From Defluviitaleaceae bacterium (GTDB lineage: Bacteria > Bacillota > Clostridia > Lachnospirales > WQUN01): 64,000 nt of DNA. Of the stretch, positions 1,617 through 31,538 are shown piece after piece; positions within the stretch are counted from its first letter, which is position 1, and each line of letters opens with the position of its first letter. Location of the stretch: NCBI GenBank assembly GCA_009777845.1, contig WRLD01000003.1, positions 1 to 64,000 of the forward strand. Reading direction: 5' to 3'. The translations under genes and the position numbers were made by a program. The notes below the pieces were generated by a model. That model saw only the letters and a program-made list of their open reading frames with translations. It ran no database searches and was not told where the DNA came from.

Positions 1617-3518
1617 ATGATAATATTTAACTTAGGAAATTTTAGGAAAAAATCCGTCATGCTCGGCGTGCGGTGTTGTCCTAGACAACGCCTTACTGCT
1701 TGCTTGGTGTTATTTGTGTTGTTTTTATCCAGTGTAATTGTTACCGCACAAGGGCTTTCCCAAGAAGTGGAATCCGCACAAGGGGCGGAAAATTCCCATA
1801 AGGTGGAAACCTCACAAAGGGCGGAAAATTCCCACAAAGTGGAAACTTCGCAGGGGGCAGGAAATTCTCAAAAAACGGAAACCACCCAAGGGGCGGAAAA
1901 TTCCCAAAAAACGGAAACCCCACCCCCCATCTTCCCCCTCCACACAGACGGCAAATACCTTATCCGCACAGCACACGACCTAGCCAAAATCCAATCGCAA
2001 GCCGACCTATACGTGGCTTCTAGCGGGCGCGAGGGTAGCTTGGATTACCTTTCGGCGGACTATTTGCTCGCCGCAGACATTTTTTTGCCCAAGGATTTTA
2101 CGCCTATAGGAAACGCCGCCGCCAATCCGCGCTTCGTTTTTAGCGGCAGCCTTGACGGCGCGGGCTTTTGCGTGCGCGAAATGGAAATTATTTCCAGCAG
2201 AGGCGTAACGCACGGCTTGTTCGGCAAAACGCACAACGCGCATATCAAAAACCTCACAATCACGGGTGCGGAAGTCCACGCGGTCGGCGATTACGGCAAT
2301 AGCGAGTTTGCCGTGGGCTTGCTCGTGGGCGAGGCACTCGGGGGCAGGCTCGAAAATATAACAATCGCGCACGCGGAAATTTCCGCCGCCGCGCCAGACG
2401 AGGGCAACGGCGCGGTCGGTGCGTTGGCAGGCAAGGCGATTGGCACGAGCCTTAAAAACATCAACGTCAGCGACATACAAATCACCGCCGACGGCGGACT
2501 TCGCGCGGTGGGCGGCGCGGCAGGCTATCTGGAAGCCTGCACGGCGGAGAGCGTGACCGTGCTAAACGGAAAAATCGCCGCAAACGCCCTAGCCACTGGC
2601 GGCTTCGCAGGCAAAATCAACGGCGGAGCGTTCACGGCTTCTGGCGCGGAATTGCTCAACATAGCCGCAAACGGCAATATCGGCGGCTTTGTGGGGCTTG
2701 TGACGGAAAACGCCTTTTTTAGGCTTTGTAATGCGCAAGCGAAAATAAGCGGCACGCAGAACGGCGTGGCAGGCGGCTTCGCAGGGCGTATAAACGGCGC
2801 GGAAGCAACTAGCGATAAGGGGGCGTTGCCCCTTTCCTCCGACTGGGACGTGGTGGGAATATCGCCCCGAAGCCTTGATAGCTTACTAGCAAGTAAGCCA
2901 ATCGGCACGGAGATACTAGACTGCCGCGCTATATGCGAAATCGGGGCGTTGCCGCTTTCCTTCGACTTGACAGGAATAAAATCGGGCGAAATCGCACTAG
3001 CAGGCGGCTTTGTGGGGCGGCTGGCAGGTCGTAGCCGAATAGCCAGCTCCCACGCAAGCGGCTATGTAATCGCCGACTGCTCGGGCGGCTTCGTAAGCGA
3101 AATAACAAACTCGTCACGTATAGAATATTCGTCCACAACCGCCGCCGTTTTCGGACGTGAAATCGGCGCAGGCTTTGCGGCCATTATCAGCGACATAGGC
3201 GTGCCTAACACCATCACAAACAGCCTAGCCGCAGGAAAAATCGCGGCTTCCGACAAAAACGCGCGTAGGTTTGCAGGTGTGGCGCGCCATGACGGAATAA
3301 ACGGCTGTTACGCCTACCTCGGCATGGTCACACTCGTCAACGGCACATACTCACACGCTATCCCCAACCCCTTCAGCAACGACGGGGGCGACATAGTCGC
3401 TTTTCACCGCTGTAATGTGGTGGGAATGTCGTCACGAGCCTCTGGGGCGTACAAAATAAAAAACAATGGAACGCGGATTTGCGCGGATTTAACGGATTCA
3501 CGCGGATTTTATCCGTGA
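1617..3518 (+). CDS. Secreted repeat-rich protein with GLUG-like repeats
   Basis: 633 residues. A hydrophobic export segment (LTACLVLFVLFLSSVIV, about residues 25-42) is followed by five copies of a 9-12 residue unit of the type GAENSHKVETSQ (residues 50-100). Glycine-rich modules then resemble the GLUG motif of surface adhesins (GLFGKTHNAHIKNLTITGA; GGFAGKINGG; GGFVGLV). No catalytic motif is seen. Large parts come from mobile repeats: a family E palindrome in the N-terminal region, family D copies near residues 401-426 and 595-610, and a family A array forming the last 20 residues. No good ribosome site precedes 1617; ATG 1659 is an alternative. A surface adhesin or matrix protein is likely; export is the firmest inference. 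Confidence 0.65.
   Translation: MIIFNLGNFRKKSVMLGVRCCPRQRLTACLVLFVLFLSSVIVTAQGLSQEVESAQGAENSHKVETSQRAENSHKVETSQGAGNSQKTETTQGAENSQKTETPPPIFPLHTDGKYLIRTAHDLAKIQSQADLYVASSGREGSLDYLSADYLLAADIFLPKDFTPIGNAAANPRFVFSGSLDGAGFCVREMEIISSRGVTHGLFGKTHNAHIKNLTITGAEVHAVGDYGNSEFAVGLLVGEALGGRLENITIAHAEISAAAPDEGNGAVGALAGKAIGTSLKNINVSDIQITADGGLRAVGGAAGYLEACTAESVTVLNGKIAANALATGGFAGKINGGAFTASGAELLNIAANGNIGGFVGLVTENAFFRLCNAQAKISGTQNGVAGGFAGRINGAEATSDKGALPLSSDWDVVGISPRSLDSLLASKPIGTEILDCRAICEIGALPLSFDLTGIKSGEIALAGGFVGRLAGRSRIASSHASGYVIADCSGGFVSEITNSSRIEYSSTTAAVFGREIGAGFAAIISDIGVPNTITNSLAAGKIAASDKNARRFAGVARHDGINGCYAYLGMVTLVNGTYSHAIPNPFSNDGGDIVAFHRCNVVGMSSRASGAYKIKNNGTRICADLTDSRGFYP
1661..1703 (+). repeat. Family E palindrome inside the secreted protein gene
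   Basis: ctcggcgtgcggtgttgtc and its near complement gacaacgccttactgcttgc flank a 2-base centre. It matches the elements at 22275-22317, 38581-38623 and 48918-48972. Here it is read in frame as LGVRCCPRQRLTACL, just before the hydrophobic export segment. Confidence 0.8.
2819..2895 (+). repeat. Family D element in frame in the secreted protein gene
   Basis: ggggcgttgcccctttcctccgac, then gtgggaatatcgcc and gaagccttgatagcttacta. It is read in frame (GALPLSSDWDVVGISPRSL). A partial second copy lies at 2942-2975 (ggggcgttgccgctttcc). Confidence 0.85.
3400..3445 (+). repeat. Family D variant at the 3' end of the secreted protein gene
   Basis: ttttcaccgctgtaatgtgg followed by tgggaatgtcgtcacgagcc, matching the reverse-oriented copies at 45917-45967 and 47161-47213. 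It is read in frame as FHRCNVVGMSSRAS. Confidence 0.8.
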
Positions 3519-3740
3519 AATATGTGCAATCCGTGTAATCCATATTATATGTTTGTAAATTTACACGGATTCCCCACGAACGAATCCGCCAAATCCGTGA
3601 AAATCCGCATAAATCCGTGTCCCATGCCCTTAAAATCCGCCAAATCCACATTACATGCCCCCAAATCCACACAAATTCCCCACGAACGAATCCGCGTAAA
3701 TCCGCCAAATCCGTGAAAATCCGCGTTCCATGCCCTTAAA
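3463..3740. repeat. Family A array between the secreted protein gene and mutS
   Basis: It opens with atggaacgcggatttgcgcg and closes with aaaatccgcgttccatgccc, giving inverted ends around a long run of aatccg units. The first 56 bases form the last codons of the upstream gene. The 3519-3883 gap holds this array, a C-rich stretch and the mutS promoter. Confidence 0.85.
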
Positions 3741-28330: not shown

Positions 28331-28885
28331 TCAAATCCTCAAAGCAAGATAAGCAGTATTCAAGTGGTCTTGCTGTATACCGAGGTAGCGTTCGGTTATT
28401 TTCATGCTACTATGATTGTATATGTTCATTACAATTATAGGGCAAACGCCGTTTTGCCACGAATGGTAGCCAAAGGTTTTGCGTAGCGAATGGCAAGAGA
28501 TTCGTTGCCCTATGTCCTTTGCCGCTAGGCTGATAATGCGGTAGGCTTGTACGCGGCTTATGGCGTTTCCTGTGTGGGCGTTTAGTATAAGCGGTGCGTT
28601 TGGCTTTGCTTGCGAACGGTACTTTTTCAGTGCGGAAATCACGTTTTTGTGCAACGCAATTGTCTTGTGCTTCTTGGTTTTGTTCTCGGTTAGGCTTATT
28701 TCCGTGCACGGCTTGCCTGTGCTAAAGTCGTAGACATCGTTTGTGCCAAGCCGTAAAATATCGGAAATCCGTAACGCCGTATGCAGACACAACGAAACAA
28801 GTACATAGTTGCGGGGGTGGTTTTGCAGGCTCTTTAATAACCTCCTCACGGCTATGGGGCTACGGATAGGCTCTGTAAGCGACAT
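28331..28885 (-). CDS. Tyrosine site-specific recombinase, catalytic domain only (FimB/RecV size)
   Basis: 184 residues. Tyrosine recombinase with the full catalytic set: Arg in HTALRISDILRL, Lys in KTKKHKTIALH, HSLRKTFGYHSW (His-x-x-Arg), and the nucleophile Tyr in ITERYLGI. It lacks the usual N-terminal core-binding domain of XerC or phage integrases, and so has the size and layout of the small invertases FimB, FimE and RecV. AAGGAGG precedes the ATG. It is divergent from the relBE-pilin-like cluster, whose leader contains a pair of inverted recombinase-type sites (29435-29604). Those sites are its probable substrate. Confidence 0.88.
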   Translation of the reverse strand: MSLTEPIRSPIAVRRLLKSLQNHPRNYVLVSLCLHTALRISDILRLGTNDVYDFSTGKPCTEISLTENKTKKHKTIALHKNVISALKKYRSQAKPNAPLILNAHTGNAISRVQAYRIISLAAKDIGQRISCHSLRKTFGYHSWQNGVCPIIVMNIYNHSSMKITERYLGIQQDHLNTAYLALRI

Positions 28886-29013
28886 GCTGTCGTCCTCCTT
28901 GGTTTGGCGTGATGTTCAAACACCTCCGCCTGTGGCATTTTTGTATAATGTATCATATATTTTTACTATAACAAACTATTTCTTACCGTTTCATTGTTAG
29001 GAGGTTGAAGCCC

Positions 29014-29148
29014 ATGGTTAGAACGAAATGGGAACAAGTAGAGCATGACGAAGATGTGCGAGATATTCAAGAATACGAAAGAGAAAAAGCAAACGGAACA
29101 CTGGAAACAACGCCTTGGGAGGAAATAAGGAAACGACTAAACCTATGA
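29014..29148 (+). CDS. Small antitoxin-like protein (RelB-type partner)
   Basis: 44 residues: short, acidic and helical (EQVEHDEDVRDIQEYEREKA), with the tail TPWEEIRKRLNL typical of short RelB-type antitoxins that wrap a RelE toxin. TAGGAGG lies eight bases before the ATG. Its stop overlaps the toxin start (ATGA at 29145-29148). It is too short to contain a separate DNA-binding domain, so autoregulation is uncertain. Confidence 0.75.
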   Translation: MVRTKWEQVEHDEDVRDIQEYEREKANGTLETTPWEEIRKRLNL

Positions 29149-29414
29149 TATATACTCTCGATTTTTCCAAAAAAGCCGAAAAGCAGTTTTGTAAACTTGA
29201 TAGGTCTGCACAAGAGAATATATCCGCATATATCAAAAAGTATTTTGGCGTTACTCCGCACGACCCACGCTCCCACGGCAAGCCCCTAACAGGCAAGCTA
29301 AAGGGCTACTGGCGGTACGAGGTGGGCAAATACCGCCTTATATGCGAAATCCAAGACAATATATGTAAGGTGATTGTTGTTAAGGCAGGACATAGGCGAG
29401 ATATTTACAAGTAG
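29145..29414 (+). CDS. RelE/ParE-family toxin
   Basis: 89 residues. MIYTLDFSKKAEKQF start, LTGKLKGYWRYEVGKYRLIC core and AGHRRDIYK end are diagnostic for RelE-type mRNA interferases or ParE-type gyrase toxins; the basic residues near the end favour the RelE type. Translation is coupled to the antitoxin by the four-base overlap; a longer frame from 29115 is rejected. It lies just before the candidate invertible segment, so its mRNA could extend into the pilin-like gene. Confidence 0.88.
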   Translation: MIYTLDFSKKAEKQFCKLDRSAQENISAYIKKYFGVTPHDPRSHGKPLTGKLKGYWRYEVGKYRLICEIQDNICKVIVVKAGHRRDIYK

Positions 29415-29434
29415 GGGCTGTCTTTTGGTTTACA

Positions 29435-29604
29435 ATGTAACATAATATCTATTCTGTTACATTCACAAAAAAAGCCAGTAAAAAAGCACATAAAAAAGAG
29501 CGGGTATTACCCCGCTCGCCCGAAATTTAAAAATATGTACCCGAAAAGCCCTTGATTTTACTAGGTAAAATACCGCATGTAACACAATAGATATTTTGTT
29601 ACAT
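29435..29604. repeat. Candidate invertible segment: 28-bp inverted recombinase-type sites around 114 bp
   Basis: The left site (29435-29462) and the right site (29577-29604) are reverse complements at 26 of 28 positions. Each is built like a tyrosine recombinase core site: inverted arms ATGTAACA and TGTTACAT around an asymmetric 12-base centre containing aatagatatt. The enclosed 29463-29576 holds a one-way terminator. A FimB-sized recombinase is encoded nearby and a pilin-like gene starts 39 bases downstream. Confidence 0.75.
29496..29520 (-). terminator. One-way terminator inside the invertible segment
   Basis: gagcgggtattaccccgctc forms a GC-rich hairpin (29499-29518). Only on the minus strand is it followed by a run of T (TTTTTT). 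In the present orientation plus-strand transcription should pass; after inversion it would stop transcription into the pilin-like gene. Confidence 0.7.
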
Positions 29605-29642
29605 ACGGCGAAAATAAAGCATAAAAAAAAGGAGTGTTCACT

Positions 29643-31538
29643 ATGAAAAAGCAACTAAGAAAGGCAAACGGCTTGGCACTGCCTACGGTGGTTTTGTTTA
29701 TTATTATGATGGCTACCGTGGGTACACTAATGGTGGTAGTGTCCAATCGTTCCATGAAAATGTCTAACGCAACACCTACCCTAGACGGACACTACTATGC
29801 CGCCGAATCTGCCATAAATAGGGCTATGGTGGGCTTAGTTAGTGATGTTAGCGATTTTTCGGTCAGTGCAGTACAAGAAGCCGCCAAGCAAGCGGCAGAA
29901 GATATAATGGTGGCGGTAAACGCTCGGCTTATGTCTTTTCCGCACTCGGGAGCTAACGCGCCTAATCGTACTGATTTGCAAGATTTTTTAGTAAATAGCT
30001 TTGATGCTAATGCAGAGAATTTTCAAGATAAAATAAGAAACGCGGTGCATGATTATATCAGCGGAGCTATTAGCCTACCTGCGCCACATTCTGCTACACC
30101 TAGCATGGGTACAAGTGAGGTTTATTTTTGGCTCGTAGGTGCGGACGAAACAGCTCCTATGGACGGTTTTAATACGCCCGGCTACGCTAACCTAGCGAGG
30201 GTAGGCACAGGCGCAGATGCGGATAAGCTACGAGTTGGGCTTGCAGGTGTGACAGTAACTACCCCTGCACAAGATAGCTCCCACCCTCTTAATGAAGCTG
30301 GCGAATATGAAGTATGGAAAACAAGTATAGGCATTAAGCCGTATATAACCTTTGAATCCTATGCGGGTACTGTTTCGGGTACGCAAGCTATTACACAAGA
30401 CATTATTATTCCGTTTGACGAATTTGATGTATATTTTGGGTTTGATGTGACTGGTGGAAACGGCGGTGCTAGTGCAGACGGAGCTTTTTGGGGAATTATA
30501 CCCTCAGCTCTAACTGTTGGTGGGGACAATAAAACAAAGGTTAATGGCGGCACAAATTACCCAACCCCTTTACCTTTGAACAGCTTAACTTCAGCTATAG
30601 ACAATCTAAGGAATGATATACGCAAGAAGGCGTATGGGTCTGACACTTATCACATGGCATCGAATGTTCCAGGTCCCGCACACACAGTCGAAGTTGTAAT
30701 GATAGATGGTGAACGTAGACTTAGAATAAACGGCAATGGTTCTGCTAACACAATGGCTAACACAATGGCTGTACCTCCTAATAATCGTTTGGTTATTGAT
30801 TCCCCTAGTAGTGGTGTAACGCTCATGGGTGATTTTTCGGGTATGAGTATAGTGGGGCAAAACATACCTGTCTTTCTAGGGTCGGCTGACTCTAACCCTA
30901 AGCCTAAGCCGTTTATATCAAGCAATTCCTCTAATAATGAAACATTTATTTTTACTCAAAGCAACATAACCGTAAATGTATCTGACGGAACAACACTGAA
31001 CAATGTAAGTGTAGGAACGACACAGAACATGTCGTTCCAAAGCCACGGAGTGCCTGGCACAGTGTTAATGAACGCGGTTTTTGCCGCAAATACAATGCCA
31101 GATGGTGAGATAAAGGCATCTGAATGGTCGACAAACCAATTGCCCCAGTTTTATGCACGCGGCACACTACAATTGCGTATGGAGGGTAAAGACAAGGACG
31201 GCAAGGGTATCGCCATGGGCGGATTATTCGCAAATGCGGATGGTGCACAAACACAAATTGAAATAGACAACGGCGGAGCTGATTTTAACGGACTATTTGC
31301 AGCACCTCCTTCTTCGGGCAGTTATGTACGAGGGGATACAAACTTTATTTCGCCACCCAAATTCGCCGACGAAGCCATGGACGTACTAGATGATTTGGCG
31401 GTACAAATTAACAGTAGCGGTGGTGGCGGTGGTGGCAGTGACGATCCACCAAGCTATAGCTTCGATTCGAGTTCGTGGGGCGTAAACACCGACACCGCCG
31501 ATGTACCCACTGCCCCACCGTCTTTCCACACCCCCTAA
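29643..31538 (+). CDS. PilX-like/prepilin-like surface protein
   Basis: 631 residues. A basic leader MKKQLRKANG is followed by LALPTVVLFIIMMATVGTLM, a class III signal in which cleavage after Gly10 by prepilin peptidase would leave a hydrophobic N-terminal helix. HYYAAESAINRAMVGL just after it is typical of PilX/PulK-type minor pilins. The remaining 560 residues are extracellular, beta-rich and rich in N, T, G and S. The C terminus has GGGGGGS and a P/S/T-rich tail. The ATG at 29643 has AAAGGAG eight bases upstream. Its leader carries the candidate switch, so expression may be phase-variable. Other pilus genes are not in the window. Confidence 0.75.
   Translation: MKKQLRKANGLALPTVVLFIIMMATVGTLMVVVSNRSMKMSNATPTLDGHYYAAESAINRAMVGLVSDVSDFSVSAVQEAAKQAAEDIMVAVNARLMSFPHSGANAPNRTDLQDFLVNSFDANAENFQDKIRNAVHDYISGAISLPAPHSATPSMGTSEVYFWLVGADETAPMDGFNTPGYANLARVGTGADADKLRVGLAGVTVTTPAQDSSHPLNEAGEYEVWKTSIGIKPYITFESYAGTVSGTQAITQDIIIPFDEFDVYFGFDVTGGNGGASADGAFWGIIPSALTVGGDNKTKVNGGTNYPTPLPLNSLTSAIDNLRNDIRKKAYGSDTYHMASNVPGPAHTVEVVMIDGERRLRINGNGSANTMANTMAVPPNNRLVIDSPSSGVTLMGDFSGMSIVGQNIPVFLGSADSNPKPKPFISSNSSNNETFIFTQSNITVNVSDGTTLNNVSVGTTQNMSFQSHGVPGTVLMNAVFAANTMPDGEIKASEWSTNQLPQFYARGTLQLRMEGKDKDGKGIAMGGLFANADGAQTQIEIDNGGADFNGLFAAPPSSGSYVRGDTNFISPPKFADEAMDVLDDLAVQINSSGGGGGGSDDPPSYSFDSSSWGVNTDTADVPTAPPSFHTP

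Follow-up and report, generated by a model that had tools for sequence, protein, structure and literature searches.

The 64,000-nucleotide stretch of DNA analysed here, which we call the window, carries a 170-base segment just upstream of a gene for an envelope protein, and the question raised by this locus is whether the segment can invert and, if so, which part of it would act on the gene. We conclude, with a probability of roughly 0.86, that it is a site-specific DNA-inversion switch of the cwpV type, although inversion within one population and the termination itself remain unobserved.

Recombination sites, predicted terminator and neighbouring genes

The features of the locus are listed below with their coordinates in the window; C36, C54 and C8 denote contigs of the same genome that carry further copies.

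28331..28885, minus strand: tyrosine recombinase, 184 aa, catalytic domain only, of FimB/RecV size (Pfam PF00589, 5e-20)
28944..28949, plus strand: TATAAT, candidate -10 for read-through, without a good -35; the same element lies ~20 bp before the left site in C36
29014..29148, plus strand: 44-aa RelB/DUF6290-like antitoxin, in an insertion absent from the C36 copy
29145..29414, plus strand: RelE/ParE-type toxin, ending 20 bases before the left site
29435..29462, plus strand: left recombination site, ATGTAACATAATA-TC-TATTCTGTTACAT, centre TC; arms shared by all 8 genomic sites and by those of relatives
29463..29576, no strand: invertible interior, 114 bp, 94.7-94.8% identical, inverted, to the C36, C54 and C8 interiors
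29492..29517, minus strand only: predicted intrinsic terminator, hairpin GAGCGGGGTAATACCCGCTC then TTTTTT; points away from the gene (predicted state: ON)
29554..29571, minus strand: AAAATC element, conserved, in a small inverted repeat close to the right site
29577..29604, plus strand: right recombination site, ATGTAACACAATA-GA-TATTTTGTTACAT, centre GA; inverted relative to the left site
29643..31538, plus strand: target gene, for an envelope protein whose N-terminal hydrophobic segment is pilin-like; first ~75 residues shared by four paralogues

The earlier note on this DNA had described two 28-base inverted sites that match at 26 of 28 positions around an asymmetric centre, and a hairpin between them with a T run on one strand; our analysis confirmed both, including the coordinates of the sites. 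Chance would give, by our computation, ~7e-7 such pairs per 64 kb. Searching the 2.98-Mb genome with the site pattern, allowing up to 3 mismatches, returned 8 sites, exclusively as four inverted pairs, and a reversed control pattern had 0 matches in the same genome. The hairpin (29498-29517) has its T run on the minus strand only and a computed energy of -14.0 kcal/mol, and an Rfam search of 28900-29750 gave no match above the gathering threshold. Judged by sequence, the segment has two features that a switch of the cwpV kind calls for: it is bounded by inverted site-specific recombination sites, and the intrinsic terminator is predicted to face the gene in one orientation only.

The recombinase fits the FimB/FimE/RecV-like size class (~180-200 residues, catalytic domain only) and possesses the R, K, HxxR, H and Y residues, in register with K-12 FimB and FimE in an alignment at 26-28% identity; the NCBIfam invertase models PRK09870 and PRK09871 match it at 1.6e-9 and 1.2e-8, far below their curated cut-off. 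Its start at 28885 lies 549 bases from the left site, which bears out the earlier statement that a FimB/RecV-sized recombinase is encoded some 550 bases away. A second recombinase, 97% identical, sits directly beside the C36 switch, and both copies are intact. No recombinase was found near the C54 and C8 switches, so that action in trans would be expected there. That the enzyme acts on these sites is inferred from proximity and co-occurrence only, inversion being undemonstrated.

The target ATG (29643) lies 38 bases past the right site, and a Shine-Dalgarno-like AAGGAGTG precedes the gene at 29629. Its description as a PilX-like gene 39 bases downstream holds for the distance and for the hydrophobic N-terminus, but PilX homology is not confirmed, as the protein matched no Pfam or NCBIfam pilin or PilX model. 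The N-terminal hydrophobic segment is followed by YYAAESAINRAM, with nothing more that is pilin-like and, in the absence of a profile match, we use the term purely descriptively. The toxin on the entry side was confirmed by Pfam (RelE/ParE, 1.4e-9) and by an NCBIfam RelE_StbE match, and the antitoxin matched DUF6290 and RelB-like models weakly, both below cut-off. The C36 copy has ~80 bp with TATAAT, and nothing else, between the recombinase start and the left site, whereas the window flank follows C36 to ~28966 and then continues with ~470 bp that carry relBE (28966-29434). This insertion, not found elsewhere in the genome, is why the upstream flanks of the window and C36 cannot be aligned at the site. 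The relBE pair is therefore present where the earlier note placed it, but it is a window-only insertion and no part of the design.

Opposite orientations in paralogous copies

The segment is present four times in the genome, in the window (contig C3) and on contigs C36, C54 and C8, each time preceding a gene with the same N-terminus. With the gene placed at the right, the other interiors match that of the window when inverted, at 108/114 (C36), 109/115 (C54) and 109/115 (C8) positions, and compared directly they reach only 43.6-44.3%, shuffled sequence giving ~42%. The 60 bp past the right site, by contrast, match the window directly at 80-93% in all three copies. Despite the flipped interior, the outer half-sites of the window and C36 are identical in place, with T at left position 9 and at right position 20; that they stay put while the interior flips indicates that the breakpoints of the exchange lie within the sites. 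This comparison of paralogous loci, which rests on one assembly consensus per locus and on no reads or transcript data, establishes that both orientations exist across homologous loci of one genome and that the flip boundaries coincide with the sites; reversibility in living cells is inferred.

The four paralogous targets are 76-92% identical over their N-terminal ~75 residues and 22-57% identical over the remainder. A query with the N-terminal 72 residues against the 38 genomes of the family recovered six genes, four in this genome and two in another (G001), and all 6 of 6 lie ~37-39 bp behind such a segment. A fifth pilin-gene match, at the end of contig C3, was rejected: it is the C8 gene, which is completed by an overlap of ~84 bp between the contig ends.

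Transcription of cwpV starts from a promoter that precedes the left repeat, and the OFF transcript contains an intrinsic terminator (PMC2784873); by this logic the window copy would be ON and the other three OFF. In the mechanism we propose, the 184-residue recombinase, or the near-identical C36 copy in trans, would bind the palindromic arms ATGTAACA/TGTTACAT and exchange strands in the asymmetric centre, inverting the 114-bp interior; which recombinase acts is a matter of inference. Transcription would come in from the left, starting at a promoter that precedes the left site and in the window would be that of the relBE transcription unit. In the OFF state (C36, C54 and C8) the interior terminator would face the gene, and in the ON state, as assembled in the window, it would lie on the opposite strand, letting transcription continue into the pilin-like gene; the efficiency of termination is likewise inferred. 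The relE gene stops 20 bp short of the left site. In the ON orientation there is thus no terminator between relBE and the pilin-like gene, and we infer a joint transcript; in the OFF orientation relBE transcription would end at the terminator of the switch.

Recurrence across the family and rival explanations

Relatives of the recombinase were found in 20 of the 38 family genomes, weak matches counted, and around them we identified 22 further usable site pairs in 11 other genomes. Start-to-start spacing of the sites is 139-143 bp in 22 of 26 pairs, the exceptions being 134, 150, 151 and 173 bp, the last in the divergent pair L089. The recombinase gene is adjacent and divergent in most loci, and the complete design of a divergent recombinase of ~184 aa, a site pair and a one-sided terminator is repeated at ~20 further loci. 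The central 8 bp of the sites agree at 0.95 within a pair and at 0.69 between species (arms, 0.89); centres that are matched within the pair and vary between species, with the arms kept, are as strand exchange requires. Mismatches within pairs fall mostly in the outer halves (44 vs 11).

A strict scan found the terminator directed toward the target in 20 loci and away from it in two, the window and L085, of which the second is less certain. It detected none in four loci, two of which (L080 and L083) show a target-facing hairpin and T run by eye. These loci establish the polarity of the terminator, the linkage of the recombinase and the recurrence of the arrangement. The earlier note had proposed an invertible segment upstream of the gene, with the terminator as its moving part, and a comparison with related genomes as a check; the opposite interior orientation in three paralogues and the recurrence of the arrangement in relatives support the proposal.

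Targets in the relatives include an SLH/InlB-repeat surface protein (L077). At L089:3834-6501 (G022:C3) the related, more widely spaced site pair, with a terminator, separates the recombinase from csrA, after which comes flagellin; the locus may be a phase switch for flagellin. In most interiors the AAAATC element recurs 15-18 bp inward from one of the sites and often lies within a small stem, the arms of which vary from species to species. Stem pairing was stronger than with permuted arms (mean stem 4.4, against 3.0 after permutation; p = 0.0014, 10 loci), a result that is only suggestive because the stem in the window's genome (G000) overlaps the motif and the L077 anchor was placed on a neighbouring match; whether the element is an accessory binding site or an RNA element is open.

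What moves with the interior might instead be a promoter, as in the fim switch, with an outward promoter in the invertible part and the terminator as a mere insulator. This alternative survives best, and we consider it unlikely. TTGACA or TGGACA does occur at the interior end beside the right site in L063, L077, L081, L078 and L059, and the G000 interiors hold GTTACA-17-TAAAAT, but no conserved -10 follows the interior-end TTGACA, and the core-group interiors have no near-consensus promoter and score like shuffles (8.27 vs 8.03). Near-consensus promoters are found upstream of the left site in some relatives: TTGACA-18-TATAAT in L054, TTGACA-17-TATACT in L055 and TTGACA-17-TATAAT in L080, which score 12, 11 and 12 of 12, end ~10 bp before the site and have a -35 that overlies the recombinase start codon. 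Transcription that starts there must cross the segment. With promoters upstream in some relatives and none enriched inside, the flipped part is read as a terminator, as in C. difficile cwpV and as the earlier note had held against a fim-like promoter.

The promoter evidence favours an upstream over an internal promoter unevenly across loci. Averaged over all 26 loci, upstream flanks do not score above shuffles, 10 of 12 being reached by four only, and several relatives, including all loci of G008, have no recognisable promoter upstream of the site. The upstream promoter in the window's genome is weak by consensus (TATAAT, no good -35), and the entry promoter in this species is inferred. For position 9 in the left outer half, where T occurs in 17/25, we considered a role as part of a hidden -10 (CATAAT) and rejected it, there being no matching -35.

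Less probable again is a one-time historical inversion, after which recombination at the site pairs would have ceased or become rare, leaving the segment as a fixed insulator that separates divergent genes. This would agree with the 20 loci in one orientation, the other being seen only in the window and perhaps L085, and with C54 and C8 lacking an adjacent recombinase; however, cwpV is likewise mostly OFF in culture, with ~5% ON (PMC2784873), the sites remain almost perfect, and in every species the two centres of a pair match, and two near-identical intact recombinases are kept in this genome. Least credible is that the window orientation arose in assembly from mis-joined repeats: there are indeed four copies of the interior at 95%, and in relatives these loci are often where contigs end, but some differences (AAATTT; CCCGCTC stem) are private to the interior in the window, whose upstream flank is also unique, so that the assembler did not take its orientation from another copy, and the 28-bp site is the sole inverted repeat able to mislead an assembler. 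Contig breaks at switches were also considered as a sign of mixed orientation, a notion we rejected since repeats explain them.

Relation to known switches and wider occurrence

Terminator inversion of the cwpV type, as we read the window segment, has its closest counterpart in cwpV itself (Cdi1), which also has short inverted repeats around a segment (195 bp) in the 5' leader of a surface-protein gene, an intrinsic terminator in the OFF transcript and a site-specific recombinase, RecV, and whose promoter is upstream of the segment, as the near-consensus promoters of some relatives suggest for the present design (PMC2784873). The cwpV-like phase switching suggested in the earlier note is supported by the upstream promoters of some relatives, the one-sided terminator and the inverted copies. 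The cwpV repeats are, however, 21 bp long as opposed to the 28-bp palindromic sites here, its terminator is located at the left repeat/segment junction and not wholly inside the segment, and recV is unlinked, whereas the recombinase gene here is usually adjacent and divergent (PMC2784873). Also unlike cwpV, the unit occurs in 4 copies in the genome and is repeated across the family. The C. difficile flagellar switch (Cdi4, flgB operon) similarly involves an inversion, RecV-dependent in that case, upstream of a surface-structure operon, and its moving part affects elongation and not initiation, through Rho in Cdi4 and through an intrinsic terminator here (PMC5386303, PMC7446863). With the E. 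coli fim switch (fimS, FimB/FimE) the locus shares the size class of the recombinase, at the identity given above, its position beside the switch and a surface-fibre gene as target; fimS flips a promoter, and here a terminator flips.

Two things are new: a multi-copy cassette that combines a self-contained terminator with a linked recombinase, and the relBE insertion, which is confined to the window copy. Detailed knowledge of terminator inversion comes, as far as we are aware, from very few loci of a single species. At the loci described here it appears as a standard repeated module with tight geometry, a linked recombinase and many targets (pilin-like, SLH protein, csrA-flagellin), and can therefore be studied comparatively. 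The site consensus offers a simple search key for candidate inversion switches without reads and, because the terminator has polarity, the state of a switch can be read straight from an assembly.

The exact site pattern also occurs elsewhere in GTDB genomes, where Candidatus Gastranaerophilales dominate among the matches listed. These matches include at least 51 distinct close site pairs over all taxa, 51 of 51 inverted, at least 21 of which adjoin a gene with a type IV prepilin-like start. A wider reading, which we put forward tentatively and at slightly under even odds, is that a portable cassette of a divergent recombinase, two palindromic sites ~141 bp apart and a self-contained terminator has spread by copying within a family of gut Clostridia, giving independent on/off control of many surface genes; that in Gastranaerophilales, of an unrelated phylum, large sets of inversion switches at type IV pilin genes work with this same design of 28-bp site; and that in the window relBE is the entry transcription unit, the flip deciding whether the pilin-like gene joins the relBE transcript.

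Single sites near a recombinase of the same family were seen, among the matches listed, in Geomicrobium, Anaerosolibacter, Gracilibacter and others. Seven loci of unrelated Bacillota (L113, L121, L135, L154, L157, L165 and L167) have a single exact site ~100-320 bp from such a recombinase, with no obvious close partner site. In viral contigs, three stretches carried the site and none was the same locus; L210 (IMGVR_UViG_2820607737_000003, ~3518-3720) is a copy of a switch like that of G004 with its right site interrupted, possibly by a mobile element.

For Gastranaerophilales or Melainabacteria, neither DNA inversion nor phase variation is reported in the literature searched. Metagenome-assembled genomes of Candidatus Gastranaerophilales hold dozens of inverted 28-bp site pairs of the same type, with spacings of 168, 180, 283, 402 and others, among them L101, L104, L105, L126, L131-L133, L169, L189 and L192. 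At L104, L164 and L189, near-identical prepilin starts lie on both sides of the segment, which suggests that these loci alternate between two pilins.
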